Assembly: GCF_033097365.1 (NCBI RefSeq)
Contig: NZ_AP028461.1
Location: 7,812,001-7,876,000, forward strand
Length of the DNA: 64,000 bases
Reading direction: 5' to 3'
From: Actinoplanes sichuanensis
GTDB taxonomy: Bacteria; Actinomycetota; Actinomycetes; Mycobacteriales; Micromonosporaceae
Position numbers and translations under genes: made by a program. Position 1 is the first letter of the stretch. Each line of letters opens with the position of its first letter. Shown piece after piece: positions 29,436 through 49,474 of this stretch. The notes under the pieces were generated by a model, which was not told where the DNA came from, searched no databases, and was given only the letters and a program-made list of their open reading frames with translations.

Positions 29436-30301
29436 CCCTGCGCCGGATCGGATCACACACCAAGACGTCGGGAGGGCTGGCCAAGGCGGCCCTCCCCTAC
29501 GTCGACGCCGCGGGTTCGGAGACCCTTCAGGTGTACGTCTCCAACTCCCGTGGCTGGGCGCTGCCGCCCGGCGACCCGAAGCAGGACGTGCTGTTCCGCG
29601 ACGGCATCGGCGAGCGCGGGCTGCCCGCCTACATTCACGCGTCGCTGCTGGTCAACCTCGGCTCACCGACCGAGCTGACGGTGGAGCGCTCGATCGCCAC
29701 GCTGGAGCACGCGCTGCTGCGGGGTAAGGCGATCGGCGCGACGGCTGTCGTCTACCACGCGGGCAGCTCGGTCGACGAGGCGCACGCCGAGAAGGCCATG
29801 CACCAGCTGCACGAGCAGCTGCTGCCGTTGCTCGACCGGGCGGCCGCCGAGGACCTACCGAAGCTGCTGGTCGAGCCGAGCGCGGGCGGCGGGCGGAGCC
29901 TGGCGTCGAAGGTGCAGGATCTGACCGCCTACCTGGCGGCCGTGGAGCGGCATCCGTGGCTGGGGGTCTGCTTCGACACCTGCCACGCCTGGGCGGCCGG
30001 GCACGACCTGGCCACCCCGGGCGGTATGACGGCGACGCTCGACGCGCTGGTCGAGGCGGCCGGGCCGGGCCGTCTCCAGCTGATCCACGCCAACGACTCG
30101 AAGGACGAGTGCGGGTCGACGCGGGACCGCCACGAGACGATCGGCAAGGGCCGGATCGGCACCGAGCCGTTCGCCGAGCTCTTCGCCCACCCGGCGACCG
30201 CGGGCATCCCGATCATCGTGGAGACGCCGACGGTCGAGCACGAGGGGCACGCCGCGGACATCGCGGTGCTCAAGGGATTGCGTTCGTCAGAAGCGCGCTG
30301 A
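29432..30301 (+). CDS. nfo: Deoxyribonuclease IV (AP endonuclease family 2)
   Basis: This 289-residue TIM-barrel endonuclease IV-type enzyme incises DNA at abasic sites in base-excision repair. Metal-ligand regions visible are VVYHAGSS, LLVEPSAGGG (Glu), VCFDTCHAWAAGHDL (Asp and His), LIHANDSKDECGSTRDRHE and IIVETPT. GTG start at 29432 overlapping the pknL stop, so it is probably expressed with the kinase. The last 32 bp overlap the convergent LysR gene. Confidence 0.9.
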   Translation: MTLRRIGSHTKTSGGLAKAALPYVDAAGSETLQVYVSNSRGWALPPGDPKQDVLFRDGIGERGLPAYIHASLLVNLGSPTELTVERSIATLEHALLRGKAIGATAVVYHAGSSVDEAHAEKAMHQLHEQLLPLLDRAAAEDLPKLLVEPSAGGGRSLASKVQDLTAYLAAVERHPWLGVCFDTCHAWAAGHDLATPGGMTATLDALVEAAGPGRLQLIHANDSKDECGSTRDRHETIGKGRIGTEPFAELFAHPATAGIPIIVETPTVEHEGHAADIAVLKGLRSSEAR

Positions 30302-31109
30302 GCCGGGCCGCGGGTGCGCCCGCGCCGGGTGTGGTCAGCAGCTCCACCCGGTGCACCATCCGCGGCAGCGGGACGCCGTCGGCCACACTCGCGGGCAGGA
30401 CGGTGAGCCCGTGGCCCGCCTCGACCAGCCCGATCAGCACCGCGACGTCGGCGCCCTCGTAGCGCAACCCGGCACGCGGGCCGTCCACCGGCAGGTTCGT
30501 CAGGGGCGAGACCACCGGAGCGTCTATCCAGTACGCCTCCGTGAGGTCGGCCAGCTCGACGGTCCGGCGGGCCGTCAGCGGATGATCCCGCGGAACCGCC
30601 ACCACGGCCGTGTCCTCGGCCACCCCGATCGCCCCGGCCAGCGGCAGCGGCAGCGGGTCGTTGGGCGCGGTGAACCCGTCCACCAGGGCGATGTCGATCT
30701 CCCCGGTGGCGGCCGCGTCGACGATCCGGGCCCGGTCGCCGACCAGCACCCGGCTGTCCAGGCGGGCCGACTCGGCGCGGATCGCGGCCAGCGCCGTGGA
30801 GATCCGCCGGGACCAGGCGAGCGGGGTCAGTCCGATGATCAGGCGGCCGGGTGGCGCCACCGCCCGGGTCACGTCCGCGCGGGCCGCGGCCAGCCTGGTC
30901 AGCAGGAGCGTGGCGTGCCGTTGCAGGCGCTCGCCGGCCGGTGTGAGAGCGACCGGCCGGCGGGTCAGCAGTGGGGTGCCCAGGTCGGCTTCGAGGAGCG
31001 CGATCTGCTGCGAGACGGCCGACTGGGTGTAGCTGAGGCGCTGTGCGGCGACCGAGAACGAGCCGGTCTCGGCGACGGCCACGAACGTGCGCAGCAGGTG
31101 CGGATCCAC
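30270..31109 (-). CDS. LysR-family transcriptional regulator
   Basis: This 279-residue LysR protein has its winged HTH in GSFSVAAQRLSYTQSAVSQQ (about residues 17-36) and a substrate-binding domain from GRLIIGLTPLAWSRRISTAL onward. The start is taken as the GTG at 31109 (VDPHLLRTFVAVAE, the usual LysR N-terminus); the ATG-led frame further upstream lacks family similarity. It is divergent, 71 bp away, from a glutamine-amidotransferase-like gene, its likely target. Confidence 0.87.
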   Translation of the reverse strand: MDPHLLRTFVAVAETGSFSVAAQRLSYTQSAVSQQIALLEADLGTPLLTRRPVALTPAGERLQRHATLLLTRLAAARADVTRAVAPPGRLIIGLTPLAWSRRISTALAAIRAESARLDSRVLVGDRARIVDAAATGEIDIALVDGFTAPNDPLPLPLAGAIGVAEDTAVVAVPRDHPLTARRTVELADLTEAYWIDAPVVSPLTNLPVDGPRAGLRYEGADVAVLIGLVEAGHGLTVLPASVADGVPLPRMVHRVELLTTPGAGAPAARLSALLTNAIP

Positions 31110-31869
31110 ATGAGCGATGCTAATGCCGAGTGCAGCAACGATCGTTGGACCTGATCTCGCGTCGGGGCGAGAGTGGACCCATGAAGAGAATCGCCCTGGT
31201 CGGCGATCGGTCACCGGCCGTTCGCGCCCATAACCGGATTCCCGATCTACTCGACGTCCTCCGCGACGAGGAGGACCTCGACGTCTACTGGGTCCCGACG
31301 CCCGATGCCGAGGACCCGACGACCCTGCGCGGCTTCGACGGGATCTGGCTGGTGCCGGGCAGTCCCTACCGAAGCCCCGAGGGCGGCATCACCGCGGCCC
31401 AGGTGGCCCGTCTCGGCGGCATCCCGTTCCTGGGCACGTGCGGCGGCTTCCAGCACGCCATGCTGGAGTTCGCGCGCAACGAGTGCGGTTTCCTCGCCGC
31501 GAGCCACTCGGAGTATGCGGAGGGCGAGGAGGAGGGCACCGACTCGCTGATCGTCGAGCTGGCCTGTTCCCTGGCCGGGCACGAGGCGGCGGTCGAGGTG
31601 GCCGCCGGGTCACTGATCGAGCGGCTGCTCGGCGCGTCCCGCACGGTCGAGCGCTATCACTGTTCGTATGGGCTCGCCGCCGCCCACCTCGACCTGCTGA
31701 CCGAGCACGGGATGCGTTTCACCGGCCGCGACGAGAGCGGGGCGGTCCGGGCCGCCGAGCTCACGGACCATCCGTTCTATCTGCTCACGCTCTTCCAGCC
31801 GGAGTTGGCCGGAGACGGGACCGACCCGCACCCGATCATCCGTGGCTTCGTCGCGGCTGCGGGGGCCGC

Positions 31870-35827
<3,958 letters not shown>

Positions 35828-35849
35828 GGGATGTCTCCTCAAACAGTTA

Positions 35850-35860
35850 GGAAACTTTCC
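35850..35860. promoter_or_regulatory. Palindrome upstream of the chitinase
   Basis: GGAAACTTTCC, embedded in GTTAGGAAACTTTCCAAAG, resembles the TTAGGAAA-TTTCCTAA type of inverted repeat found before secreted polysaccharidase genes of actinomycetes. It sits in the 5' leader, and would suit a LacI-type or other operator. Confidence 0.5.
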
Positions 35861-35998
35861 AAAGAGAGGGATGAAGAGACCGTAGTCACATCGATTAACA
35901 ACAGTCAAGCCAGGTGAACAGCATTTAAGGTTCTTTAACACAGCCGGACGCGTCACGACGGCGTGCAATCAGGCGGACACGGCCGGTAGTCTTCCGTC

Positions 35999-36469
35999 AT
36001 GACCATCTTCGACGTCAAAATTGGCGCCCTCACCGGTGGCGCGACCGAATTGGACCGTTACCGCGGCAAGGTCGTGCTGGTGGTCAACGTGGCCTCGCGA
36101 TGCGGACTGACCCCGCAGTACGCGAAGCTACAGAACCTCTGGGAGACCCATCGCGACCGCGGCCTGGTGCTGGTCGGCGTGCCCTGCGACCAGTTCGGCG
36201 GTCAGGAGCCCGGCACCGCCGAGCAGATCGACGAGTTCTGCCGGGTCAACTACGGCGTGACCTTCCCGGTGACCGAGAAGGTGGAGGTCAACGGACCGGG
36301 CCGGCACCCCCTCTACACCGAGCTCGTCGGCGACGGCGCGGACATCTCGTGGAACTTCGAGAAGTTCGTGGTCGCCCCGGACGGGACCGTCGCGGCCCGG
36401 TTCGAACCGGGCACCCAGCCGGACGACGCGGAGCTCGTCGCGACGATCGAGAAGCTGCTGCCGCACTGA
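35999..36469 (+). CDS. Glutathione peroxidase-family (thioredoxin-type) peroxidase
   Basis: This 156-residue Cys-type GPx has catalytic Cys35 in NVASRCGLTPQY, Gln in CDQFGGQEPG (about residue 70) and Trp/Asn in WNFEKFVV (about 120), the full catalytic tetrad. A second Cys at VPCDQF may allow a thioredoxin-linked mechanism as in other bacterial GPx. It reduces hydroperoxides in the cytoplasm. Its stop overlaps the start of the DUF429 gene (ATGA). Confidence 0.93.
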   Translation: MTIFDVKIGALTGGATELDRYRGKVVLVVNVASRCGLTPQYAKLQNLWETHRDRGLVLVGVPCDQFGGQEPGTAEQIDEFCRVNYGVTFPVTEKVEVNGPGRHPLYTELVGDGADISWNFEKFVVAPDGTVAARFEPGTQPDDAELVATIEKLLPH

Positions 36470-37146
36470 TGAGCATCCACGTGATCGGCGTCGACGCGTA
36501 CGCGCTCGGATGGGTCGGCGTCGAACTGCGCGACGGGGCCTTCGGGCGCGCCGTCCTGGCCGCCACCCTCTACGAGATCGTCGCCGGCAGCTCCGGCGCC
36601 GCGGTGATCGGCGTGGACATCCCGCTCGGCATGCTCCCCGACCGCTGGCGGGCCGCCGACACCCTGGCCGCCGACCAGCTCGGCCCGCGCCGCGGCAGCG
36701 TCTTCCGGGTGCCGCCCCGGGCGGTCTGGCAGGAGCCCGACTTCGCCTCGGCCAACCGGCTCTGCCGGGAGCTGACCGGCGCCGGGCTCAGCCGGCAGTC
36801 CTGGGCGCTGCGGCCCAAGCTGCTGGAGGCGAACGCGATCTGGGAACGGCACCCGGGTCTGCTCTTCGAGGCCCATCCGGAGGTGTCCTTCCGGACCATG
36901 GCCGGCGAGCCGTTGCCGCACGCCAAGAAGACCTGGAGCGGGCAGGCACGCCGCCGTGAGCTGCTGGCCCGCAACGGCATCGTGCTGCCGGACAAGCTCG
37001 GCCCGGCCGGGCAGGCCCCGCCCGACGACATCCTGGACGCGGCCGCCGTCGCCTGGACCGCCCACCGGGTCGCCACCGGGGCGGCGCTCAGCCACCCCAG
37101 CCCACCCGAGGAGGAGAACGGCAGTCGGATCGCGATCTACTACTGA
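36469..37146 (+). CDS. DUF429 domain protein
   Basis: This 225-residue DUF429 protein has an RNase H/actin-like fold predicted for the family. Visible acidic and core motifs include VIGVDAYALGWVGVEL at the N-terminus, AAVIGVDIPLGMLP (about residue 45), the RGSVFRVPPRAVWQE loop, FEAHPEVSFRTMAG (about 140) and DDILDAAAVAWTA near the end. Activity is unknown. It is translationally coupled to the peroxidase by ATGA. A GC-rich hairpin follows its stop. Confidence 0.87.
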   Translation: MSIHVIGVDAYALGWVGVELRDGAFGRAVLAATLYEIVAGSSGAAVIGVDIPLGMLPDRWRAADTLAADQLGPRRGSVFRVPPRAVWQEPDFASANRLCRELTGAGLSRQSWALRPKLLEANAIWERHPGLLFEAHPEVSFRTMAGEPLPHAKKTWSGQARRRELLARNGIVLPDKLGPAGQAPPDDILDAAAVAWTAHRVATGAALSHPSPPEEENGSRIAIYY

Positions 37147-37187
37147 CATCGAGAAGCGCGGATAATAAGCGTCATCGCTACATCGCC

Positions 37188-37218
37188 CCCGGCGTCTGCT
37201 TTGTATACTGACGCCGGG
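37188..37218. terminator. Hairpin before the SCO2524-type gene
   Basis: CCCGGCGTC pairs with GACGCCGGG around a 13-nt loop that contains TATACT; TTTCGCC follows. It may end the peroxidase-DUF429 transcript, and the TATACT could serve as a -10 element for the downstream cassette. Confidence 0.5.
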
Positions 37219-37248
37219 TTTCGCCACGGGAGTAGCAGGTGACCGCGC

Positions 37249-39102
37249 ATGAAGGTTGATCCCCGGCAGCAGCTTCTGGAGATCTGGCGGGCGGTGATCG
37301 AGCACTCGTACCGTGACGGCGAGTGGCATTGGGGCGGTCGCGACGGCCGCAACTCGATCAGCGACGCGGAGCAGTTGCTCTGCATCCTCGGGCCGGCCAC
37401 CGCGATCGACACGTTCGGTCTGGACTCGCCCGGCCGGATCAGCGAGGACCTGCTGGACGTCCTGAAACCACTCGGCGGCGTGATGGACGGCCCGCTCGCC
37501 CTGCTCGAAGCGGTGGAGGCTTACCTCACGGCCTACACGGACGAGAACAACACCCCGATCTTCGCCGCGGAGAGCTACTTCCGAAACCCGGTCGGCGCGG
37601 ACCCGGCCGAGCTGAGCCCGGAGCAACTGGCCCAGCCGGTCGTCGACTCGTTCGCCATCTCGATGGCGCTGTCGCTGGCCACCATCGGGTTCGCCCGGGA
37701 GTTCCGCAAGAACCTGAAACGGCGCAGCTCCCGCGCGGACATCGACCGCCTGGTGGAGATGGCGAGCAGGCGTCTCTCGGCTGCCATGGTGGGCCTGCTG
37801 CGCAGTTTCACCGTCAACATCTTCGACGTGGACTCCCGCGACGGCCGCGCCCTCATCCGGACGGTGAACCAGCGCGGGCTCTCCACCCGGCGCATCGTCC
37901 CGATGATCCAGCAGTCTCTGGAGGACGTGCGGAACAGCCTGCGCACCATCACGATCGGCTCCGGCGCCAACCTGGCCGATGACCTCGACCATCCGGATCG
38001 CCTGTTCGAGTGCGGCTGGAGTTGGGGCGTCGTCCGGGACGCGCCGGTGATCGAGACCAGTGAGCAGATCGGCCGGCAGCTGTCCGGCCGGGCCGAGCCC
38101 GCGCCGTACATCTACTTCACGACCGTGGCCCTGGACGCCATCGAGGCACTGTCCGCTCCGCGCACCCAGCGGCTCGGCCTGCTCAACGAGGAGCAGCAAC
38201 GACTCGCTCAGGGCCTCCGGCTGCGCTGGGACCTGACCCAGTCGTACTGGTCGGCCATCGCCGTGCCGGCCGGCAGCGGACTCCGGTGGCCACTCGAGGA
38301 CATCCCCTGGCAGCGCACCACCGAGAAGGAGTCGGAGTACTTCTCCCTGCACGTCTCCTCGATCGTGGTGCAGGACCTGGTCCGTAAACGGGCCGGCAAC
38401 GTCGACCTCAACCGGGTCGGCCGGGTGCTGCAGAGCCTGGCCGACCGGGCCCGGATCACCAGCCGGGTCTACGCCGGCGACAAGAGTTACCGGCTGCACG
38501 CCCCCGGCTTCCCGATCAACCTGGGTGGCAGCGGCGATCTCGACGAGGCCCGGCTCACCTGGGTGATGTCGGACTTCGCGCCGTTGCTGCTCAAACGGAC
38601 GATCAGCCTGGCCGAGTTGCTCGGCGCCTCGACGATGCGTAACGAGATGATCGATCTCGCCGACGACATCTGGGACCATCTGGACGCCCGGCGGCTGACG
38701 AAGACCCGGCACGGCCTCTGGGATCAACCTCGCCGGGTCTTCGAGGACTTCGAGGACACGTTCGAGGATCCGTCGTGGTACCACACGAAGCGGATCACCG
38801 ACTGCCTGATCACCGCGGCCGAGGTCATCCGCAAACCGCCGCCGCGCAGCGAGCCGGTCGCCGCCCTCGCCAACGACCTGCTCAGCGAGGCCGAGCACCT
38901 GTACGACCAGGAGCTGCTCCAGGGCTCCCCGAACAGCGGCCACGCGATGCAGGCGGAGATGCAGGCGCTGGCGGCCAAGCTCGAACGCGGGCGCTCGGTC
39001 CTCGACAAGCAGCCGGGGACGGCCTATGCCCTCGCCAATTTCGTACTGGTGGCGCTGGACCAGTTCGCGGCGGCCCGTAGCGACCTCGACAGCGAGTCCT
39101 GA
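37249..39102 (+). CDS. SCO2524-family protein (cassette gene 1)
   Basis: This 617-residue, mostly alpha-helical soluble protein matches the actinobacterial SCO2524 family, whose function is unknown. No membrane helix or nucleotide-binding motif is visible. It contains charged segments such as FRKNLKRRSSRADIDRLVEM and ends in ANFVLVALDQFAAARSDL. It begins at the ATG at 37249 after a GC-rich hairpin, and the P-loop partner starts 2 nt after its stop. Constant linkage with the next gene suggests that the two proteins work together. Codon use is normal for the chromosome, with no sign of recent transfer. Confidence 0.82.
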   Translation: MKVDPRQQLLEIWRAVIEHSYRDGEWHWGGRDGRNSISDAEQLLCILGPATAIDTFGLDSPGRISEDLLDVLKPLGGVMDGPLALLEAVEAYLTAYTDENNTPIFAAESYFRNPVGADPAELSPEQLAQPVVDSFAISMALSLATIGFAREFRKNLKRRSSRADIDRLVEMASRRLSAAMVGLLRSFTVNIFDVDSRDGRALIRTVNQRGLSTRRIVPMIQQSLEDVRNSLRTITIGSGANLADDLDHPDRLFECGWSWGVVRDAPVIETSEQIGRQLSGRAEPAPYIYFTTVALDAIEALSAPRTQRLGLLNEEQQRLAQGLRLRWDLTQSYWSAIAVPAGSGLRWPLEDIPWQRTTEKESEYFSLHVSSIVVQDLVRKRAGNVDLNRVGRVLQSLADRARITSRVYAGDKSYRLHAPGFPINLGGSGDLDEARLTWVMSDFAPLLLKRTISLAELLGASTMRNEMIDLADDIWDHLDARRLTKTRHGLWDQPRRVFEDFEDTFEDPSWYHTKRITDCLITAAEVIRKPPPRSEPVAALANDLLSEAEHLYDQELLQGSPNSGHAMQAEMQALAAKLERGRSVLDKQPGTAYALANFVLVALDQFAAARSDLDSES

Positions 39103-39104
39103 CC

Positions 39105-40007
39105 ATGCTGGTCTTCGCGACCTCGGACAAGGGCGGCACCGGGCGGTCGGTGACCACCAGCAACGTGGCCTATCAGAGCGCGCTCGCCGGCTACGACGTC
39201 TGCTATCTCGACTTCGACTTCGGCTCGCCGACCGCCGGTTCGGTCTTCGACATCGACGCGGGCCGGCTCGGCGTGCTGCACGGCGGGCTGCACTCGTACC
39301 TGCTGGGCGAGGTGACCGAGCCACACCGGATCGACGTCTTCGCCGAGACCGAGCGGGAGAGCGTCAAGGTCCGGGACCGCCACGCCGGCAAGTTGTTCCT
39401 GCTCCCCGGCGACCTCGGCATCGGTGAGTTCCCGAGCAGCGACGGCGTGGTCAGCCGCTGCACGGAGATACTGGAGTTGCTGGTCAGTCAGTTCCACATG
39501 TGTTTCGTCGACCTCAGCGCCGGGCGGTCCTACGCCCTGCAGATGGCGCTGGAGGCCGCGCGCCGGCTGCCTGACGTTCGGACCCGGTGGCTGGTCTATC
39601 ACCGGTGGACCAAGCAGCACGTCATCGCGGCCGCCTCGCTGGTGCACGGCCGGCACGGCATCCTGGAGGCCGGCGAGGACCTCGGCTACAACCGGGACGA
39701 GTTGCTGGCGTCGTTGCGCTTCGTGCGGACCGCCCTGGTCGACCCGGCTCGGCCCGGCCTGACCTCGCAGCAGTCCGTCTGGATCGCCGAGTGGGACAGC
39801 CGCCTCCAGGCCATCGCCGAGAGTGCGAACGCCGGACCGCCCTGGATGCTGCACACCGTCCCGCTCGACCCGGTCCTGCAGTGGCGCGAGCAGCTGATCA
39901 CCGCCCATGACGTGACGACGATCGGTATCGCCAACGAGCGGACCGCCGAGGCGTTCCAGCAACTGGCCCGGCTGCTGCACAACGACAAGGCGTGGGAGGT
40001 GCGGTGA
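39105..40007 (+). CDS. SCO2523-family variant P-loop (ParA/MinD-like) protein
   Basis: This 300-residue member of the SIMIBI/MinD-ParA superfamily shows ATSDKGGTGRSVTTSN at residues 5-20. The signature Lys9 is present but the invariant P-loop Lys (KGGxGK-T/S) is Arg14. Switch-like LDFDFGSPTAG (about residue 36) and the Walker-B-like CFVDLSAGRS (about 140) follow. Such ATPases usually dimerise and position partners on membranes or DNA. With Arg for Lys, ATP hydrolysis or binding may differ. Genes sit 2 nt after the SCO2524-type gene and overlap the SCO2522-type gene by 4 nt, so this is the cassette's core. Confidence 0.87.
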   Translation: MLVFATSDKGGTGRSVTTSNVAYQSALAGYDVCYLDFDFGSPTAGSVFDIDAGRLGVLHGGLHSYLLGEVTEPHRIDVFAETERESVKVRDRHAGKLFLLPGDLGIGEFPSSDGVVSRCTEILELLVSQFHMCFVDLSAGRSYALQMALEAARRLPDVRTRWLVYHRWTKQHVIAAASLVHGRHGILEAGEDLGYNRDELLASLRFVRTALVDPARPGLTSQQSVWIAEWDSRLQAIAESANAGPPWMLHTVPLDPVLQWREQLITAHDVTTIGIANERTAEAFQQLARLLHNDKAWEVR

Positions 40008-40984
40008 CCGGGCCGCACACGACGTTCCAGGAGTGGTCGGCCCAGCCACGTATCGAGCGGGTGCCCCTGTCACACGTCTCGATCGAGCTGGGGCACCTCT
40101 ACCGGGAGGACTTCGCGGGCGGCATCGAGCTGCTGCGCCGGCATTTCCGGGAGATCAAGCCGTGGGTCGCCGCCGCCCGCGACCGGGCCGCCGCGCTGGC
40201 CGGGCCGGGCAGACGCCCGCGGATCAGCACGTGCTTCCTGATCGACGACTACTTCAGCGCGTTCAGCACTCCCGACGAGGTGATCGGCCGGCTGGTCGAG
40301 GCGGCCGGCGACAACGGGCTCACCATCGACTACGTGGCCCGGGAGGCCGGCTGCGCCGAGGCCGGCCCGGTCCGGCCCGCCGAGCTCGTGCTCGACCGGC
40401 TGGTCAACGAGCCGCCACCGGGCACCGACGGTCTCAAGCCACCGGCGGCGGCGAGCGGCTGGGTCACCAACGGCGACCGGCCGCCCGGCTCTTCCGCGCA
40501 GCCGGCGATGGCCCGTCGCCCGGCCTGGCAGCCCCCGACGGAGAACGCCAAGAGCCTGCACTCGATCTACCTGGCGGTGGAGATCTTCTCGCGGAAGCCG
40601 GAGGGCCGGCAGTGGTCGTGCCCGTTCCTGGCCGCGGTCTGGCAGTTGCTGCGGCTCGGCATGTTGCGGGACAACGGACGGCCGGTGGCGGCCCCGCAGC
40701 CGGCCGGCGAGCGGCTGCCGGCCACGTGGGAGTCGATGCCGGCGGTCCTGCGGCTCAACCCGGACGCCCAGCCGTTCAGCGCGTACCGGACGCTGTCGGT
40801 ACTGGCCCGGCAATTCCAGAACATCGAGGCGGCGGTCGGGGTGGTGCTGGGCCAGGTCGCCGTCGACGAGGAGGTCCACCAGCAGGTCCGGATCCGGGCC
40901 GAGGAGGAGGGCGTCGTGCTGCCCGAGGGCCTGGTGCAACGGATCTCGTACGTCTTCGACGGCGACAGCAACCGGGTGCCCTGA
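40004..40984 (+). CDS. SCO2522-family protein (cassette gene 3)
   Basis: This 326-residue protein of the uncharacterised SCO2522 family has a GTG start overlapping the P-loop gene stop (GTGA). The N-terminal region (LSHVSIELGHLYREDFAGGI, then PRISTCFLIDDYFSAF) looks like a folded alpha/beta domain. A Pro/Gly-rich stretch spans residues 135-180, followed by a helical C-terminal domain (SIYLAVEIFSRKPEGRQWSC, SAYRTLSVLARQFQNIEAAV). The IDDY acidic motif could bind a metal, but I know no such activity. It ends 2 bp from the convergent membrane gene. Confidence 0.83.
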   Translation: MTGPHTTFQEWSAQPRIERVPLSHVSIELGHLYREDFAGGIELLRRHFREIKPWVAAARDRAAALAGPGRRPRISTCFLIDDYFSAFSTPDEVIGRLVEAAGDNGLTIDYVAREAGCAEAGPVRPAELVLDRLVNEPPPGTDGLKPPAAASGWVTNGDRPPGSSAQPAMARRPAWQPPTENAKSLHSIYLAVEIFSRKPEGRQWSCPFLAAVWQLLRLGMLRDNGRPVAAPQPAGERLPATWESMPAVLRLNPDAQPFSAYRTLSVLARQFQNIEAAVGVVLGQVAVDEEVHQQVRIRAEEEGVVLPEGLVQRISYVFDGDSNRVP

Positions 40985-40986
40985 GA

Positions 40987-41934
40987 TCAGCGGGGCTGCG
41001 CCGCCTCCCACAGCTCCCGGAAACGTTCACTGTGGTCGGTAACGCTGTTGGTCCGCAGCAGCAGTCTGGTGTTGACGACGATCGGCGGGATGTTGCCCGG
41101 CCGGGCCATCAGCTCGTAACTGATCACGTCGTCGAAAAGGATGAAGTCGAACAATGAGGTACGACGAAGCTCCGCGGCCGTGGCGCCGTGCAGCACCCGG
41201 ACCTCGACGCCGATGTCGGCGTGCCGCCGGCAGATCTTCTCCAGCGCGCTCTCGCTGCCGGGGCCGGGCTGGTCCTCGATGAAGATCCGGCGGATCCGCA
41301 CGCCGCGCTGCACCGCGTACCGCTGGGCGTCGAGGTAGCGCTGGCCCAGGTCGGTGTTCCACAGGCCACCACCGTCCACCGTGGTCAGGCTGGTCGCGTC
41401 GATCGACTTCTCCGCCGAGTGGGTGAGGCTGAGCAGCCAGTCCCGGTCCTCGCCCTCGTAGATCGTCTCGACCCCGTCGCCGAGCCCCTTGAGGAACTCC
41501 GACATCCGGTCGAGCTCCCGCTGGGCGAGCCGGTGCACGAGCTCCGGCAGGTGCGTGGTGATCTTCGTGGAGTGCCGGACCAGCCGGGCCAGCGACTCGG
41601 TCTCCACGGCGCATTCCTCGATCAGGTGGAACAGCTCGGTGGCCTCGCTGATCGCCCGGAACCGTTCGTCGACACAGGCCTTTATCTGCCGGGACTGCTC
41701 CTCCTGGCTGAGCTGGACCTCGCGCAGCCGGCCCTCGAACGAGACCAGGAACTGCACCACCAGGGCCGAGCCACCGACCAGCACCGACAGCGTTATCGAC
41801 AGCAGCGGATCCTTGTCGGCCAGGTTCGTCAGGACGAAGGCCACCCCGCCGGTGACCAGGGCGATGACGACCTTACGCATCACTTTGGACAGCCGGCGCA
41901 CCGACTCGTCGGCCGGCACGGTCAGCCCGCTCAT
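40987..41934 (-). CDS. Two-helix membrane protein with degenerate PLD-like C-domain
   Basis: This 315-residue protein has two adjacent membrane helices (about residues 20-40 and 47-67), a charged coiled segment (FEGRLREVQLSQEEQSRQIK), then a soluble domain from about residue 150. It runs SLTHSAEKSIDATSL, RYLDAQRYAVQRGVRIRRIF, DIGVEVRVL and FDFILFDDVISYELM, an order resembling phospholipase D-like domains but with no HKD motif. It overlaps the SCO2521-type gene by 4 nt (ATGA), so it belongs to the cassette. A membrane tether for the P-loop protein is a reasonable hypothesis only. Confidence 0.7.
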   Translation of the reverse strand: MSGLTVPADESVRRLSKVMRKVVIALVTGGVAFVLTNLADKDPLLSITLSVLVGGSALVVQFLVSFEGRLREVQLSQEEQSRQIKACVDERFRAISEATELFHLIEECAVETESLARLVRHSTKITTHLPELVHRLAQRELDRMSEFLKGLGDGVETIYEGEDRDWLLSLTHSAEKSIDATSLTTVDGGGLWNTDLGQRYLDAQRYAVQRGVRIRRIFIEDQPGPGSESALEKICRRHADIGVEVRVLHGATAAELRRTSLFDFILFDDVISYELMARPGNIPPIVVNTRLLLRTNSVTDHSERFRELWEAAQPR

Positions 41935-42860
41935 CGGGGCACCCCTGGTCTGTCCCGCTCGCGGAGCGTACTGACGGCCATGTGGTCACGGATACGGTTC
42001 ACCGAGGTGTGCCACTGGTGGTCGAAGCCGGCGAGCCGGTCGAGCCGGTCCCAGAGGTCCCGGGCGCCCCGGCTCAGACGAAAACCGGGCGTCCACAGGT
42101 GCAGCAGGTGGTCGACGGCGGGCTGGATCCGGTCCACCACGGCACCCTCCGACGGCCCGGTCAGCGGCGCGCGGCTGAGGATCGCCTCCAGTGTGGTGAG
42201 CAGCCAGTCGTGCAACGCCAGGCTTTCGCAGAGGGTCACCACGTCGGCGAGGTCGCAGGCGCTCGTGGCGATTCGCACGGTCCGGTGCAGCGGGGAGTCG
42301 ACGCGGAAGTGCAGCTCCTCCTCGCCGGCGCCGAGCAGGGCGGCCCAGCGCAGAGTGATCCGGTCACTCGGGACCGCGACCTTCCGGGCGAGCTGCACCC
42401 CGGACCGGGCCCGGATGGCGGTGCGCTCGGCGATCGGGGTGAGATCGAGCCCGGACGGCTTCGGGGCGCCGGCCAGGAAGGCCGCGGCCATCGCCTCTTC
42501 CTGATACCTACCGATGATCTGGAGTGTGCCCGGGCGGGCCAGGTAGTGGGACCAGAGCACCCGGCGCGAGTACCGGCTCCGCTCGGCCACCGTGCGGGCC
42601 GACGCCTGGAACGCGTGACCGCCGGTGAGCACGGCCCGGGTGGCGACCGTGCCGATCCCCCGCACGCCACGGTCGAGAGCGGCCGGGACCTGACAGTCCA
42701 CACCCTCCAGTCGCTCGGGCGAGACGACGTAGGAGATCGGACGGTCGGAGCGGATCACCGGCGCCCCGGCGGTGAGGCCGAGCATGCGCTGCGCGGCATC
42801 GGCGGGCACCGCTGCGGAGGTAGGCAGGAGGGACGTGAGCACCTCACCCAGAACCAACAT
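41931..42860 (-). CDS. SCO2521-family protein (cassette gene 5)
   Basis: This 309-residue protein of the uncharacterised SCO2521 family starts MLVLGEVLTSLLPTSAAVPA, a family-like N-terminus; a GTG one codon upstream at 42863 and GGAG 12 nt before make the exact start uncertain. The longer frame back to 42962 has no family similarity. The protein is soluble, with a helical centre (RYSRRVLWSHYLARPGTLQI) and C-terminus (RGARDLWDRLDRLAGFDHQW). No catalytic motif is recognised. It is divergent from the D-amino acid oxidase gene and is the first gene of a two-gene minus-strand operon within the cassette. Confidence 0.82.
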   Translation of the reverse strand: MLVLGEVLTSLLPTSAAVPADAAQRMLGLTAGAPVIRSDRPISYVVSPERLEGVDCQVPAALDRGVRGIGTVATRAVLTGGHAFQASARTVAERSRYSRRVLWSHYLARPGTLQIIGRYQEEAMAAAFLAGAPKPSGLDLTPIAERTAIRARSGVQLARKVAVPSDRITLRWAALLGAGEEELHFRVDSPLHRTVRIATSACDLADVVTLCESLALHDWLLTTLEAILSRAPLTGPSEGAVVDRIQPAVDHLLHLWTPGFRLSRGARDLWDRLDRLAGFDHQWHTSVNRIRDHMAVSTLRERDRPGVPR

Positions 42861-43013
42861 CACCCCGTGCCCGCTCCTGTCCGGCGAATCGTTCCAAGGC
42901 TCGATTGGACCGCACCGTTCTAAATAACGCAACGCTCCAGAGCTGTCACCATACGTGTTCACGGCAAGTTAACGAGAGTCGATGGGGTGGTCCGGTTCGC
43001 CTAAAATGTATGC

Positions 43014-43994
43014 ATGATCGTCAACGCGGACGTGGTCGTTCTGGGCGCCGGCGTCTCCGGGCTCACCTGTGCGATCCGCCTCGCCGAGGCGGGCTTCCGG
43101 GTCACTGTGCACAGTGCCGATCCGCCGGCCCGCATCACGTCCTACGCGGCCGGCGCCATCTGGGGCTGTTACCTCGTGGCGCACGACCGCGGTGTGGACT
43201 GGTCGCTGCGCTCGCTGGAGATCTTCCGTGACCTGGCCCGCGAACCGGCCGTCACCGGGGTCCGGATGACCTCGGGCGTGGTGGCGAGCCGGGGTGATCT
43301 GAAAGCCGACCATCCGGGGCCGGGCGCCGAGGATGTGCAGCCGGTGACGAGCACGGCGACGCTGCCGCCCGGGTTCACCAACGGCTGGTGGTATCGGGTC
43401 CCGCTGATCGACATGGTCGTCTACCTGGCCTATCTGACCGCCCGGCTCGACGACTGCGGGGTGCGGGTGCAGGTCGGCGGCCGGGTCACCCCGGAGCAAC
43501 TGCCGCGGCTCGGCACGACCGTGGTCAACTGCACCGGTGTGGACGCCGGTGACGTGGTGCCCGGCGATCCGGTGCGCCCGATCCGCGGTGATCTGCTGGT
43601 GGTCGGCAACCCGGGGATCGACACGTTCTTCGTGGAGCACGACGACGACCGCGACGGGCTGACCACCTATGTGCTGCCGCACGGCGACCGGGTGATGCTG
43701 GGCGGCAGCCGGACCGACGGCGACTGGTCACGGCAGCCCGATCCCGAGCGGGCCGAGCAGATCCTCCAGCGCTGTGTGGAAGCCGAGCCGCTGCTGGCCG
43801 GGGCGCGGGTGCTGGACCACCGGGTCGGCCTGCGCCCGGCGCGTAAGAGATTGCGGGTCGAGGCGGACGGCCGCCATCCACACGTCATCCACAACTACGG
43901 GCACGGCGGCGCGGGCGTGACCCTCTCCTGGGGGTGCGCCGACGAGGTGCTGGCGCTCACAGGCGCCGCAGCACGTACCACCCGTCGTTGTTGA
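43014..43994 (+). CDS. FAD-dependent D-amino acid oxidase-type enzyme
   Basis: This 326-residue DAO-family flavoenzyme has the Rossmann motif VVVLGAGVSGLTCAIRLAEAG at the N-terminus (shown as VVVLGAGVSGLTCAIRL), SYAAGAIWGCYL, GWWYRVPLIDM (Tyr/Arg of the substrate pocket), VNCTGVDAG, and the C-terminal RVGLRPARKRLRVE and HNYGHGGAGVTLSWG typical of D-amino acid oxidases. It oxidatively deaminates D-amino acids, releasing hydrogen peroxide. Its last 38 bp overlap the convergent GNAT-like gene. Confidence 0.92.
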   Translation: MIVNADVVVLGAGVSGLTCAIRLAEAGFRVTVHSADPPARITSYAAGAIWGCYLVAHDRGVDWSLRSLEIFRDLAREPAVTGVRMTSGVVASRGDLKADHPGPGAEDVQPVTSTATLPPGFTNGWWYRVPLIDMVVYLAYLTARLDDCGVRVQVGGRVTPEQLPRLGTTVVNCTGVDAGDVVPGDPVRPIRGDLLVVGNPGIDTFFVEHDDDRDGLTTYVLPHGDRVMLGGSRTDGDWSRQPDPERAEQILQRCVEAEPLLAGARVLDHRVGLRPARKRLRVEADGRHPHVIHNYGHGGAGVTLSWGCADEVLALTGAAARTTRRC

Positions 43995-44736
43995 AGCCCG
44001 TCACCACGAACCCGGCGGCATCGGCCTCGGCGAAACCGGCACGGACGCCGAGCCGCCAGGCATGCGCACGGGCCGGGTCGTCCAGTCGGAGACGCTCGAT
44101 GTCCACCGGGGTGGGCACCAGCCGGTGGAGCCCGTCACCGCAGTCGAGCACCGCGGCGGGCCGCTCGGCGAAATCCCACCTGTCGGCGACCACCGGAAAG
44201 GTGACCGGCGCTGGGCCGACAGCGCCGGGCACGGCGTGGACGTCCCAGTCGACCACCAGCCGGTCGGTCTCGTCGTTGTCGTTGAGGCCGTCGTTGAGCT
44301 CGCCGTAGTAGCTCTTCTCATAACCCAGCACTCGGCCGCCCAGTTTGGCCAGGTTGAAGTGCGCGTTGCGGCGTACCAGCGGGTCGTAGGTCCACCGGAT
44401 CCGGGCGAAGCCCTCCTTCGCCGCCCACTCGGCCTGGTGCCGTTTCAGCTGGTAGCCGAGTCCCAGGCCCTGGCTTTTGGGGTGCACGCCGGCGATGTGC
44501 GAGTGCAGGTGACCACCGTGCGGCCCGCGCAACGCGACGGCGCCGCCGACCATCACACCCTCCAGGTACATCCCGACCACGTAACACCTGGCGTCCACCA
44601 TGGCCCGCAGCGTGGACGGGTTGATCAGGTCGAGGTGGGTGTCGGCGTTCCAGATCTGGCAGAACACATCGACCAGTCGCTCGAGCTCGTCGATGCTGGT
44701 GAGTTCACGGAACTCCACTGCCTGCTCAGAAGCCAT
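43957..44736 (-). CDS. Predicted GNAT-superfamily acetyltransferase (COG3375-like)
   Basis: This 259-residue protein has a GNAT fold core: ELTSIDELERLVDVFCQIWN, GGAVALRGPHGGHLHSHIAGVHP (strand 4 region, here GHLHSHIAGVHP), SQGLGLGYQLKRHQAEWA (acetyl-CoA loop GLGLGYQLK) and the actinobacterial family feature RWTYDPLVRRNAHFNLAKLG. The substrate is unknown. It is in tail-to-tail overlap with the D-amino acid oxidase gene and 55 bp from proC in the same direction. Confidence 0.85.
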   Translation of the reverse strand: MASEQAVEFRELTSIDELERLVDVFCQIWNADTHLDLINPSTLRAMVDARCYVVGMYLEGVMVGGAVALRGPHGGHLHSHIAGVHPKSQGLGLGYQLKRHQAEWAAKEGFARIRWTYDPLVRRNAHFNLAKLGGRVLGYEKSYYGELNDGLNDNDETDRLVVDWDVHAVPGAVGPAPVTFPVVADRWDFAERPAAVLDCGDGLHRLVPTPVDIERLRLDDPARAHAWRLGVRAGFAEADAAGFVVTGFNNDGWYVLRRL

Positions 44737-44791
44737 GACGGATCACCCAGTCACTCAGACGCACGGTGGTTTCTACTGTCAACCTACGCGG

Positions 44792-45604
44792 TCAACCGGC
44801 CGCTTCGGCGATCTGACGGGCTCGGTCGCGCGCCGCTTCGGCCGCGGTGAGCAGCGCCGATCGTACGCCGTGCCGCTCCAGCTCACGCAGGGCGGCGGCG
44901 GTCGTCCCGGCCGGGGAGGTGACCGCCTCGCGGAGCTTCACCGGGTGCTCGCCGGAATCACGGAGCATCATCGCCGAGCCGACCGCGGTCTGCACCACCA
45001 GTTCGTGAGCGACCGTGCGCGGCAGCCCCAGCTGGACGCCCGCGTCGATCAGGGCCTCGACCATCAGGTAGAAGTAGGCCGGCCCGGATCCGGACAGCGC
45101 CGTGACGGCGTCCTGCTGGTACTCGGGCACCCGGACCGTGGAGCCGAGTGGCTTGAACATCTCCTCGGCGATGCTCAGATGGTCGTCGGTGGCGTGCGGG
45201 CCGGCCGAGATCGCGGTCATCCCCTGGTCGACGGTGGCCGGGGTGTTGGTCATCACCCGGATCACCGGGGTGCCCTCGGCCAGCCGGGACGCGAAGAAAC
45301 CGGTGGGCAGCCCGGCACAGAGTGACACCACCAGGGTGTCGGCGGAGATCCGGCCGCCGATCTCGTCGAGGAGCGCCGCGGCGTCCTGCGGTTTGACCGC
45401 GATCGCCAGCACTCCGGCCCGCTCGACGGCGGTGGCGTTGTCGACGACGGGCACGCCGTACCGCTCGGTCAGCTCCGCGCCGCGCTCCGGGCGACGGGCG
45501 GTGACCAGCAGGTTCTCCGCGGGCCGACCGGAGCGGAGCAGACCGGCGACGACGAGTTCACCGATCTTGCCGGCCCCGAGGACCGCGACGGTGTGCTTGG
45601 GCAA
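44792..45604 (-). CDS. proC: Pyrroline-5-carboxylate reductase
   Basis: This 270-residue enzyme reduces pyrroline-5-carboxylate to proline with NAD(P)H. It has the N-terminal nucleotide-binding motif VAVLGAGKIGELVVAGL (GxGxIG) and the C-terminal dimer/active-site signature in ALSGSGPAYFYLMVEALIDAG and REAVTSPAGTTAAALREL. Its length is normal. The start at 45604 is preceded by AAGGAG. A large perfect hairpin lies in the gap to pfk. Confidence 0.94.
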   Translation of the reverse strand: MPKHTVAVLGAGKIGELVVAGLLRSGRPAENLLVTARRPERGAELTERYGVPVVDNATAVERAGVLAIAVKPQDAAALLDEIGGRISADTLVVSLCAGLPTGFFASRLAEGTPVIRVMTNTPATVDQGMTAISAGPHATDDHLSIAEEMFKPLGSTVRVPEYQQDAVTALSGSGPAYFYLMVEALIDAGVQLGLPRTVAHELVVQTAVGSAMMLRDSGEHPVKLREAVTSPAGTTAAALRELERHGVRSALLTAAEAARDRARQIAEAAG

Positions 45605-45633
45605 AGCGGGCTCCTTACGAGACGACCAGAAAC

Positions 45634-45686
45634 GGCTGGTTCTCTGTGCTGTCTCCGGCCCGCGGAGACAGCACAGAGAACCAGCC
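45634..45686 (-). terminator. 24-bp perfect inverted repeat between pfk and proC
   Basis: The arms at 45634-45657 (begins GGCTGGTTCTCTGTGCTGTC) and 45663-45686 are exact reverse complements around a 5-nt loop. Placed 54 nt past the pfk stop on the minus strand, it is the likely pfk terminator, although no strong T-run follows. Confidence 0.8.
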
Positions 45687-45739
45687 GAAGAAGAGCCGGA
45701 TGCCAGGAGCGGACCGCCCCCGGCATCACGACGGGTGGA

Positions 45740-46768
45740 TCAGCTGCCGAAGAAGACCTCGGCCTCTTCGTAGCGCTCCAGCGGAACGGTCTTCAGCTCG
45801 CCGGTGCCCTCGATCAGCGGGATCCGGACGACGTCGGTGCCCTGCAGCGCGACCATCTTGCCGAAGTCGCCCTCGTGGACGGCGTCGATCGCCTGGAGAC
45901 CGAAGCGGGTGGACAGCACCCGGTCGAACGCGGTCGGGGTGCCACCGCGCTGGATGTGACCGAGGACGACCGTGCGGGCCTCCTTGCCGGTCTTCTCCTC
46001 CAGCTGCTCGGCGAGCCACTGGCCGATGCCGCCGAGGCGGACGTGGCCGAAGCTGTCGAGCTCCTGGTTGTGCAGCACCATCTGGCCGTCGAGCGGCTGG
46101 GCGCCCTCGGCGACGACGACGATCGGCGCGTACTCCACCTGGAAGCGCTTGGTCACGTAGGTCGCGACCTGCTCGACGTCGAACTGGCGCTCGGGCAGCA
46201 GGATGACGTTGGCGCCACCGGCCAGGCCGGCGTGCAGCGCGATCCAGCCGGCGTGGCGGCCCATGACCTCGACGACGAGGGTGCGGTGGTGCGACTCGGC
46301 GGTGGTGTGCAGCCGGTCGATGGCCTCCATCGCGATGTTGACCGCGGTGTCGAAGCCGAAGGTGTAGTCGGTGCCGTTCAGGTCGTTGTCGATCGTCTTC
46401 GGCACGCCGACGACGTTGACGCCCAGCTCGGAGAGCTTGGTGGCGACGCCGAGGGTGTCCTCGCCGCCGATCGCCACGAGCGCGTCGACACCCTGCTCGG
46501 CCAGGTTCGCCTTGATCCGCTCGACACCGTTCTCGATCTTGAACGGGTTGGTGCGGGACGAGCCCAGGATGGTGCCGCCGCGCGGCAGGATGCCACGGAC
46601 CTCCGCGATACCCAGCGGCTTCGTCAGACCCTCCAGCGGGCCCTTCCAACCGTCGCGGAACCCGACGAACTCGTGGCCGTAAGCGGTGACGCCCTTACGG
46701 ACGACGGCCCGGATGACCGCGTTGAGACCGGGGCAGTCGCCGCCACCGGTGAGCACGCCGATACGCAT
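45740..46768 (-). CDS. pfkA: 6-phosphofructokinase, PPi-type signature
   Basis: This is a 342-residue phosphofructokinase. GGGDCPGLNAVIR (residues 8-20) binds phosphate, PKTIDNDLNGTDYTFGFDTA (123-142) carries the catalytic Asp of TIDND, and MGRHAGWIA follows. The phosphodonor loop is GGEDT (101-105): the residue equal to Gly104 of ATP-dependent E. coli PFK is Asp, and PKTIDND has Lys where E. coli has Gly. Asp plus Lys at these two sites is the established mark of pyrophosphate-dependent PFK. It acts in glycolysis, possibly reversibly. A 193-bp gap without recognisable features separates it from the ROK gene. Confidence 0.9.
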   Translation of the reverse strand: MRIGVLTGGGDCPGLNAVIRAVVRKGVTAYGHEFVGFRDGWKGPLEGLTKPLGIAEVRGILPRGGTILGSSRTNPFKIENGVERIKANLAEQGVDALVAIGGEDTLGVATKLSELGVNVVGVPKTIDNDLNGTDYTFGFDTAVNIAMEAIDRLHTTAESHHRTLVVEVMGRHAGWIALHAGLAGGANVILLPERQFDVEQVATYVTKRFQVEYAPIVVVAEGAQPLDGQMVLHNQELDSFGHVRLGGIGQWLAEQLEEKTGKEARTVVLGHIQRGGTPTAFDRVLSTRFGLQAIDAVHEGDFGKMVALQGTDVVRIPLIEGTGELKTVPLERYEEAEVFFGS

Positions 46769-46961
46769 TTTTCTTCCCCCTGGATCGGGTAGCGAGATGC
46801 GGATAGCCCGTCGAGGCCCCAGGGACGATTTCGTCGGCAGCGTTGCCGGCCCGGGGCGGGCCGCACCCGAACTGTAGTCGCCGTACCTGAGCCACCCGAC
46901 GGCGGCCCACTAAAGCCGGACAGTTTCGATGCGGTCACGGCGCCGCGACGGAACGGCAACC

Positions 46962-49226
46962 TCACAACAGCGACTCGATCGCCCCCAGCGCCTCGACATC
47001 CCGGCCGAGAGCTGCGGGAACCACGCTGAGCGCGGCCGCCGTGGCCGGAGGGCAGTGCCGTTGGAGCGCCTCCCGAACCCCGTCGACGACAAAACCGCCG
47101 GGCTCGGTGAACCGGCCGCCGACCACCACGACGGCCGGATCGAAAACCGACACGAGCGGAGCGACGGTACGCCCGATCAGCCGGCCCGCGTCGAGCAGAG
47201 CGCGCTGGGCCGGACGGTCCCCGGCGGCGGCCCGGGCCAGCAGCCGACCCTCGTCCGGCGGCCCGCCGTCGGAGATCGCCGCGAAGTAGCCGGGCGACAG
47301 GAACGCGCTCAGACATCCCCGCTTGCCGCACAGGCAGAGCGGGCCGACCTCGCGGACGTTGAGGTGCCCGACCTCTCCGGCGTACCCGATCGCACCGGGA
47401 TACGGCCGCCCACCGGCCACCAGACCGGCTCCGGTGTACTGGTCGCAGCTCAGGTAGAGCACGTCCCGGGCGCCCCGGGCGGCCCCTCGGCGGCTCTCCG
47501 CCAGCGCCGAGAGCTGGGCGTTGTTGGTGACCAGGGCCGGACCGCCGAGGACCGCGGCGATCTCCTCGGCCGGCGAGAACCCGGCGAACATGGTCAGCAC
47601 ACTGCGCGAGCTCAGATGCCCGGTGACCGGGTGCACCGGGGCCGGCATGCTCACCGCGAACCTGATCCCCGGGCCCCGCCGCTCGCCGTGCGCGTCGAGT
47701 AGCTCGCGCACGAACCCGGCGGTGTCCCGCATGATCGCCCGGCCGTCCATCGACGGCGGCATGTCCCGGTACCCGGTCCACCGGATCTCACCGGTGCCGC
47801 CGGTGGCGATCACCCGGACACCGTCGCCGCCGATCGCCACGCCGACCAGCAGCTCACCCGGCGTGACCAGACGGAAACACGGTGACGGCCGTCCGGCGCG
47901 TGGCCCGTCGGCCGGGCAGCGCTCGACGACACCGTCCCGAACCATCCCGTCCAGCAGGGTGGCCACCGCGGCCCTCGGCAGAAGGGTGCGTTTGACCAGC
48001 TCACTGCGGGTGGCCTGACCGAGCGTCCGGATCGCTTCGACAAGAATGCCTCGGCGCACGACCCGCTCCCGCTCCCCCGACGAGACACCTTTCCCGATCG
48101 GCTCGGCGTCCGCGGTGGTCACGGTGGGTGAGACCCGGGCGAGGGTACGGCTACCACGCGCCGCCGGAGTGGCCCGCAGCCCCGCCCAGAGCGCGCCGAG
48201 CAGCCCGGCCCGGTCGCCGAGTGTCCCGGCCCGGATCGCGGTGCCGGCCGCCACCTCGGGTTGGGCGTAGCGCCGCAGCGACTCGCCGACCGCGGTGACG
48301 ATCGGCCCGTCCGCCTCGATCAGTGGCCCGTCCAGCACGATCAGAGCCGGGTTCACGGTGTTGGCCAGGCCCGCGACGACCCGCCCGATCATCCGGCCGG
48401 CGTCGGCGAGGATCCGCTCGGTGGCCTCGTCGGTGCGGGACGACTCGACCGCGCGGCCGGCGCTGACCGGCTCGCCGAGTGCGGCACCGAGGGCGGCGAG
48501 GATGGCCGGGACTGAGGCGATGGTGTCCAGGCAGCCCCGATTGCCGCAGCGGCAGAGCGGGCCGATCTCGTCCATCTGGACGTGCCCGATCTGCCCGGCC
48601 GCGCCGTGCGCCCCGTGGTGCAGCACGCCGCCGAGCAGCAGACCGCAGGTGATCACCGAGCCGATCCGCAGGTAGCAGACGTCGGAGTGGCCGGCCGCGC
48701 ACCCGTAGCCGACCTCGCCGAGAAGGCTCAGCTCGGCGGTGGTGCGGACGATCACCCGGCGGCCGAGGCGCTGCTGCAGGCCGGCGGCGAGGGCGGGGTC
48801 CTGGCCGGCGCCGAGGCCGAGCACGACCGACCAGGCCGGGCCCTCGATCGTCGTCTCGCACTCGGCGATCAGCAGGGCGAGGCTGTCTAGATCGTTGCGG
48901 GACAGGTGGTGTTCCGCGAGGATGCGTCCGGTGAGGTCGGCGCTCGCCGCCCGTACCCCCTGGGTGGTGACGATCGCGCCCACCACCCCACCCGCAGCCG
49001 GACCGAGAGTGATCGACCGGGCGGGACGCCCGGCGCGGGCCCCGTCCGGGACCGCGGCGTCCTCGGCCAGGAGACCGGCCGTGAGCAGCTCGGCGACCAG
49101 GCCGTCAATGGTCATCCGGGCCATGCCGGTGCGGCGGGCCAGGTCGGAGCGGGTGCTGCGGCCGGCCTCGCGGACGGCGGCCAGGAGCAGGTCCCGGCGG
49201 ACCTGATGCACCCGGCGGCCCGACAT
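46962..49226 (-). CDS. Tandem ROK regulator: two HTH-ROK modules in one protein
   Basis: This 754-residue protein is twice the usual ROK-repressor length. Module 1 has a winged HTH (RSTRSDLARRTGMARMTIDGL, here RSDLARRTGMARMTIDGL, about residues 24-42), a ROK domain and the zinc motif CRCGNRGC near residue 224. Module 2 begins near residue 415 with QATRSELVKRTLLPRAAVAT, then a second ROK domain with CLCGKRGC near 630. Neither module shows an intact DxGxT kinase phosphate loop at the start of its ROK domain, so both are probably sugar-sensing repressors. The ATG at 49226 faces the MFS/GH3 operon across 248 bp, its likely target. Confidence 0.87.
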   Translation of the reverse strand: MSGRRVHQVRRDLLLAAVREAGRSTRSDLARRTGMARMTIDGLVAELLTAGLLAEDAAVPDGARAGRPARSITLGPAAGGVVGAIVTTQGVRAASADLTGRILAEHHLSRNDLDSLALLIAECETTIEGPAWSVVLGLGAGQDPALAAGLQQRLGRRVIVRTTAELSLLGEVGYGCAAGHSDVCYLRIGSVITCGLLLGGVLHHGAHGAAGQIGHVQMDEIGPLCRCGNRGCLDTIASVPAILAALGAALGEPVSAGRAVESSRTDEATERILADAGRMIGRVVAGLANTVNPALIVLDGPLIEADGPIVTAVGESLRRYAQPEVAAGTAIRAGTLGDRAGLLGALWAGLRATPAARGSRTLARVSPTVTTADAEPIGKGVSSGERERVVRRGILVEAIRTLGQATRSELVKRTLLPRAAVATLLDGMVRDGVVERCPADGPRAGRPSPCFRLVTPGELLVGVAIGGDGVRVIATGGTGEIRWTGYRDMPPSMDGRAIMRDTAGFVRELLDAHGERRGPGIRFAVSMPAPVHPVTGHLSSRSVLTMFAGFSPAEEIAAVLGGPALVTNNAQLSALAESRRGAARGARDVLYLSCDQYTGAGLVAGGRPYPGAIGYAGEVGHLNVREVGPLCLCGKRGCLSAFLSPGYFAAISDGGPPDEGRLLARAAAGDRPAQRALLDAGRLIGRTVAPLVSVFDPAVVVVGGRFTEPGGFVVDGVREALQRHCPPATAAALSVVPAALGRDVEALGAIESLL

Positions 49227-49474
49227 GAACCCAGTTTTGCCGAACCTGGACTTAATTATCGGCGGATTGCGACACCGGTCACACCCAGGAGCGGGCAAAC
49301 CGGGCGGCAGTAACGCGAGACACCGGCAAATCACAGCGTTGAGCAGGCCTTTTCGGCTCTGGTTCGGCGCTAATCAACTCGATACGTTCAGCGAACAAGG
49401 CGTTAACACAACACCGGAGCCGGCCCGGTGCCCTTCGCTCTTTCGTTTCCCCCTTTTTCGTTCCGAGGTGTGCG

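Follow-up and report, generated by a model that had tools for sequence, protein, structure and literature searches.

What might five tightly packed genes do together when four of them belong to families known so far by locus tag only? The question is raised by a stretch of 64,000 nucleotides of Actinoplanes sichuanensis (positions 7,812,001-7,876,000 of a genome that is a single contig of 12.1 Mb; hereafter the window), in which genes of the SCO2524, SCO2523, SCO2522 and SCO2521 families, called the core here, lie together with a gene for a membrane protein at 37249..42860. On a tree of the core genes, the closest named relatives of this genome are Actinoplanes. The five genes form a real cassette. 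Their open reading frame coordinates agree with the placement and spacing given in an initial annotation made from the letters of the window: the first two genes are 2 nt apart, the second and third as well as the last two overlap by 4 nt, and the inward-facing stops of the SCO2522 and membrane genes are separated by 2 bp (40985-40986). The assignment of four genes to the SCO2521-SCO2524 families also stood, all four being far over the curated NCBIfam cut-offs (Table 1).

The initial annotation proposed positioning, signalling or defence as the role of the cassette. It missed that the partner encoded beside the core is exchanged between genomes. This exchange, which includes an NADase-related partner type, suggests a switch for self-defence or self-restraint rather than a positioning machine, and gives a first testable idea of a role for the four families.

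Exchange of partners beside a conserved core

We searched 150 Micromonosporaceae genomes for SCO2523, SCO2524 and SCO2521 and compared the lists by eye. SCO2523 was found in 85 genomes, SCO2524 in 84, SCO2521 in 84 and all three in 83; among the core-bearing genomes, G305 was without SCO2524 and G237 without SCO2521. The families occur in soil actinobacteria (Streptomycetaceae, Streptosporangiaceae and Micromonosporaceae), and in a class sample of 394 genomes SCO2524 was present in 37 and absent from 357. A contig scan for SCO2522 gave 404 relatives, the best 80 of which were retained. Genes were called at 141 loci, the window included. One core gene was missing from 14 of the 141, several of which had been chosen on that account, leaving 127 loci with all four; less one duplicate, the 126 distinct ones are the base of all locus counts below; 12 further loci stood outside the 141-locus set.

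SCO2524, SCO2523 and SCO2522 are co-stranded in 126 of 126 loci, while SCO2521 shares their strand in 93 and is inverted relative to them in 33, the window among the latter. The Streptomyces and Streptosporangiaceae loci are collinear, with SCO2524-2523-2522-2521 followed by the membrane protein where present. That the families should co-occur rather than stand apart is borne out by the 83 genomes sharing three of them and by the 126 distinct loci holding all four close together; nor is the membrane gene a random neighbour, lying within 3 kb of the core in 99 of these loci.

Three partner types that are unrelated to one another occur within that distance: a protein of the window's membrane type at those 99 loci, a DUF4062-NACHT-HEAT protein at 16 and another two-helix membrane protein at four; seven loci have none, and no locus has two types (0/126). 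Under independence, 12.6 loci would be expected to combine the window-type membrane protein with the DUF4062 partner, although the loci are related and not independent. Two of the seven partner-less loci say little, as L102 ends with SCO2521 and L219 calls only SCO2524 and a short SCO2523. The signalling or defence option of the initial annotation gains support from this replacement of the membrane protein by a DUF4062-NACHT-HEAT protein or by another membrane protein.

All four DUF4062 partners scanned carry DUF4062, NACHT and several HEAT_2 stretches over the cut-offs, and a SITELE segment is kept in 14 of the 14 proteins aligned. A 2026 preprint (PMC13174449) describes DUF4062 as a TIR-like NADase and reports a role for bacterial proteins of this kind in abortive infection against phages. 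The exchange suggests that the core families are tied to NAD-depleting immunity. The third partner type, whose members are 37-49% identical and come from four loci with two family codes (f2 and f76), has two hydrophobic stretches around an invariant NYLNP segment in its C-terminal part and has no Pfam match; when the sequence of these loci, about 19 kb each, was searched by tblastn, nothing related to the window's membrane protein turned up.

Several further observations concern the partners. A fourth type may exist in genome G228 (L074:11191-11982), where the membrane gene gives way to one for an unrelated protein of 263 aa whose N-terminal part is hydrophobic and which matches nothing in Pfam. 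Genome G312 has two full cassettes about 140 kb apart (L083, L084), each with a DUF4062-NACHT-HEAT protein. An oxidase gene like the window's DAO-type gene was considered as a partner in Streptosporangiaceae and rejected, the clustering having chained two groups: the scanned member, L097, resembles ThiO (233.8 bits, cut-off 250.8), and among the long Streptosporangiaceae genes only that of L093 directly matched the window's gene (26%). Plasmids may also carry the cassette, since L093 is a Sphaerisporangium contig labelled as one.

Conflict-type genes also lie next to core genes at four partial-core loci. A NB-ARC-TPR protein is encoded 19 bp before SCO2523 in L180, in the expected place of SCO2524; in L178 a nSTAND1-WD40 protein overlaps a shortened SCO2524; L175 encodes a lipase of the PGAP1/LCAT type, and an AAA_16-WD40 protein whose gene stops 315 bp short of the called SCO2522; and in L181 a caspase-like protein overlaps SCO2524, with an M48 peptidase gene one gene past SCO2523. 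Since these four loci were fetched because they were exceptional, a rate of conflict-type neighbours is not derivable from them. STAND NTPases accompany the module at the 16 DUF4062 loci (four proteins scanned) and near three of the aberrant loci.

Variant proteins, the presence/absence block and accessory genes

The membrane protein of the window has hydrophobic peaks near residues 22 and 46 and matches Pfam DUF6879 at residues 199-314 (34.0 bits, cut-off 23.9), with no NCBIfam equivalog. Its structure model places a long helix beyond two N-terminal helices and has a phospholipase-D fold. The catalytic motif of phospholipase D is HKD (HxKx4D), which is absent from all 82 membrane proteins, in which respect the protein differs from the phospholipase D superfamily, TrmB-type and FAM83 domains included. 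Because the modelled fold is without HKD, this is probably a binding domain. A SLATT effector identity was rejected (NCBIfam SLATT_2, 15.6 bits against a cut-off of 40). Matches to the membrane protein above 200 bits were found in 50 of the 150 Micromonosporaceae genomes, 48 of these with the core.

SCO2523 was rightly called a variant P-loop ParA/MinD-like protein by the initial annotation. Its profile aligns with the Mrp-like PDB entry 3kb1 over N-terminal positions 4-70 (E 9.5e-7), and it scores 23.2 bits against the NCBIfam MinD model, far below the cut-off of 212.9. MinD/ParA proteins have a deviant Walker A motif with a P-loop lysine, KGGxGK[ST]. The motif of SCO2523 is KGGTGR, with arginine for the lysine in 100 of 101 proteins, the remaining one being a gene call that starts too late.

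SCO2522 is predicted to resemble the fold of class I aminoacyl-tRNA synthetases (predicted local distance difference test, pLDDT, 85.9), with a best Foldseek E of only 0.16. The motifs of those enzymes are HIGH and KMSKS. SCO2522 differs from them and from MshC, with HxGH and KMSKS-like motifs in 0 of 100 proteins and no signal against an eight-sequence arginyl-tRNA synthetase (ArgRS) profile in hhalign, where SCO2521 and SCO2524 gave nothing useful either. An E[LVI]GH motif is conserved in 97 of 100 proteins, the other three being gene calls that start too late; reading it as HIGH was rejected because it sits in the first strand of the model. In the Pfam scan SCO2521, SCO2522 and SCO2524 gave nothing over cut-off, and a profile search of PDB sequences with these three and the membrane protein gave nothing useful (best E 0.035). 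The literature searched had no mention of KGGVGR or DUF6879.

The five genes held as a unit, but the extent given by the initial annotation was too short: the presence/absence block also holds DAO-like and GNAT genes past 42860, which it missed and which come and go with the cassette in congeners. All seven block genes are missing from the site in six of six cassette-less congeners (L206-L211). The genes flanking the block, a DUF429 gene before it and a P5CR-type gene after it, adjoin directly in four of these, with two other genes between them in L209 and four in L211. In blastn, L206 has 248 bp where the window has the block (37147-44789); in L207, where the ends differ slightly, 16 bp stand in its place. 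Searches of the six genomes for SCO2523, SCO2524, SCO2521 and the membrane protein found no match anywhere; DAO-like paralogues occur elsewhere in them. No integrase was seen among the called genes of the block, and scans found no tRNA in window positions 30000-50000 and no promoter or terminator. Short stretches within the region 5' of SCO2524 (37149-37248; for example around GCGTCTGCTTTGTA) and within the gap between SCO2521 and the DAO-like gene (42861-43013) are similar across five Actinoplanes loci, with no sigma-70-type match in either.

Table 1 Genes of the cassette and of the presence/absence block, in window positions
Feature	Position	Strand	Details
SCO2524 family protein, core gene 1	37249..39102	+	617 aa; NF040567 810 bits, cut-off 300; no Pfam match; function unknown
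SCO2523 family variant P-loop protein, MinD/Mrp-like, KGGTGR, core gene 2	39105..40007	+	300 aa; NF040564 412 bits, cut-off 200
SCO2522 family protein, core gene 3	40004..40984	+	326 aa; NF040566 460 bits, cut-off 200; predicted class I aminoacyl-tRNA-synthetase-like fold without HIGH/KMSKS
Membrane protein, proposed effector	40987..41934	-	315 aa; two N-terminal membrane helices, long helix, HKD-less phospholipase-D-fold domain (DUF6879)
SCO2521 family protein, core gene 4	41931..42860	-	309 aa from ATG at 42860; NF040565 312 bits, cut-off 150; function unknown
DAO-type FAD oxidoreductase, accessory gene in the window's relatives	43014..43994	+	Pfam DAO 143 bits
GNAT acetyltransferase-like gene, last of the block	43957..44736	-	Pfam Acetyltransf_1 33.1 bits, cut-off 20.7
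Presence/absence block	37147..44789		7,643 bp; blastn of window 36001-46000 against empty sites

Two related situations were seen elsewhere. Related genomes with similar neighbours carry, at one site, the full cassette (L188) or the membrane gene alone (L172, L176), as if the rest had been lost. The genome of the window also has, at a distance of about 1.9 Mb, another SCO2524 gene (L169:9644-12206; 699.8 bits) that stands without other core genes; a GNAT gene 1 bp downstream resembles the GNAT relatives of the window's block, and an ATPase-like gene lies upstream.

Outside the window, a SCO2525 methyltransferase belongs to the unit. It was missed by the initial annotation and lies within 3 kb of the core at 71 of the 126 loci, upstream in many relatives. 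SCO2525 was over cut-off in 46 of the 150 Micromonosporaceae genomes, all 46 within the 85 core-bearing ones (hypergeometric 2.5e-15, uncorrected for relatedness), and weaker matches were found in nine more genomes, six of them without the core. The DAO-like gene is within 3 kb of the core at 29 loci. At L170, L173 and L177, and by hit coordinates in G310, a separate trio away from the core consists of the membrane gene, SCO2525 and the DAO-like gene, which are thus tied to each other; the tie of the DAO-like gene to the core is looser, since matches above 200 bits also occur in core-less genomes such as G290 and G272.

Competing explanations

The explanation that fits best is a conflict-type module, for immunity or self-restraint, in which a constant core works with interchangeable effectors. 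We give it about an even chance. It is the best fit because it covers the partner exchange, the STAND and TIR-like partner, the altered P-loop of a MinD-like component, the patchy presence with empty sites, and a loss of SCO2525 that is said to be harmful though the whole is dispensable. The idea of restraint offers a reason why losing SCO2525 reportedly harms growth while most sampled genomes are without the cassette.

Several findings weigh against this explanation. On a core tree of 92 of the 101 loci, the DUF4062 loci form one side of one branch (13 rows; Shimodaira-Hasegawa-like approximate likelihood ratio test, SH-aLRT, 99), with a warning that two pairs of long branches within this clade may be falsely joined. 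By this tree the DUF4062 exchange therefore happened once and was maintained while the lineages diverged deeply. The membrane gene also persists away from the core, with SCO2525 and the DAO-like gene, in G233, G289, G255 and G310. As the core of G233 has the DUF4062 protein (L073) and G289 is likewise assigned (L121), strict replacement at the level of the genome was rejected: the exchange concerns the locus and does not always extend to the genome as a whole. The genes flanking the block are alike among relatives, unlike a typical defence island, and the window's clade, its own genome included, is without SCO2525. PADLOC gave at best 20.2 bits on the five cassette proteins (SCO2523, with none for the other four) and three weak matches of 17.5-26 bits on eight neighbour proteins. 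We go no higher than an even chance because the exchanges are few events and the SCO2525 phenotype is possibly plain physiology.

If the conflict-type explanation is right, SCO2524, SCO2523, SCO2522 and SCO2521 would assemble into a soluble complex that senses and gates. In it, SCO2523 would serve as a switch that binds nucleotide but hydrolyses ATP weakly or not at all, and SCO2522, given its synthetase-like fold, may be the binder or producer of a ligand resembling an aminoacyl compound or a nucleotide. Either this complex or the ligand would then act on the effector. For the window's cassette, the HKD-less phospholipase-D domain of the membrane protein may receive the signal, upon which the two membrane helices would gather into clusters that damage the membrane and arrest growth. 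Elsewhere the effector under the control of this core would be a TIR-like NADase carried on a STAND ATPase, or the second two-helix membrane protein, and SCO2525, where present, would help to hold the system off. A narrower form, a signal-gated immune switch in which SCO2522 produces or recognises a ligand of aminoacyl or nucleotide type, SCO2523 sets the timing of the response, interchangeable effectors receive the ligand and methylation by SCO2525 restrains the switch, is quite unlikely.

Alternatively, the cassette may have no immune role and instead regulate development or the cell envelope in filamentous actinobacteria, with the core linking growth or sporulation to a metabolic signal by way of a membrane receiver. 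We regard this as possible, though distinctly short of an even chance. SCO2525 is called a methyltransferase necessary for normal growth, and sco2521-sco2526 an operon in the HupS regulon (PMC11472566); SCO2525 is also called morphogenetic (PMC6344877). These statements, which likewise count against a conflict role, both rest, as regards growth and morphogenesis, on Gehring et al. 2004, also cited where SCO2525 mutagenesis is mentioned in PMC3017869. Of the tags SCO2521-SCO2524, the literature searched mentions only SCO2521; SCO2525 is mentioned, and SCO2520 not at all. The cassette is found mainly in filamentous families, as judged from the best 80 of 404 relatives, yet it is absent from most sampled genomes, close congeners included, and a developmental receiver does not predict exchange for a DUF4062-NACHT-HEAT protein.

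A small-molecule pathway is unlikely. In it, SCO2522, SCO2525, the amino-acid-oxidase-like enzyme and the GNAT protein would make or modify an amino-acid-derived compound that the membrane protein senses or exports, as the synthetase-like fold of SCO2522, the DAO and GNAT domains in the block and the off-core trio would allow; one SCO2525 protein also barely reaches Pfam NNMT/PNMT/TEMT (26.3 bits, cut-off 25). However, the enzymes are inconstant (SCO2525 near the core in 71 and the DAO-like gene in 29 of 126 loci), SCO2522 is without HIGH and KMSKS in 100 of 100 proteins, and the DUF4062-NACHT-HEAT partner is left unexplained.

The conserved cassette and its partner in the initial annotation are upheld and its positioning option is not. 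That SCO2523 works as an ATPase of the MinD/ParA type and uses the membrane protein to place a complex at the membrane is very improbable, since, for all the alignment of SCO2523 with Mrp/MinD-type proteins and the long helix past the membrane helices of the membrane protein, the P-loop lysine is arginine in 100 of 101 proteins and 16 loci have, instead of the membrane protein, a STAND protein in which no membrane domain is recognised.

Relation to known systems

Four window genes are members, far over cut-off, of the NCBIfam families SCO2521-SCO2525 (NF040565, NF040566, NF040564, NF040567, NF040568), which are locus-tag names without function; the partner exchange and the DAO-like and GNAT genes lie outside those names. 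If the conflict-type explanation is true, these families would be a new core for actinobacterial conflict systems, one that PADLOC does not detect. Kaur et al. (2020, PMC7159879) describe inactive MinD/ParA-like domains in conflict systems of actinobacteria that include AP-ATPases. These STAND/AP-ATPase systems, also actinobacterial, share with some cassette relatives an altered-P-loop MinD-like protein beside STAND proteins. The cassette differs in that SCO2521, SCO2522 and SCO2524 are without Pfam matches and that the window's copy is without a STAND protein. The antiphage system Swarozyc (PMC13174449), a TIR-like NADase, likewise has a DUF4062 protein, as do the 16 cassette relatives with their SITELE segment, whereas a Pfam scan of its five proteins found none in the window cassette itself. 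As described there, Swarozyc joins DUF4062 to a C-terminal HTH/winged auxiliary domain; the cassette relatives instead add NACHT, HEAT and the four core genes.

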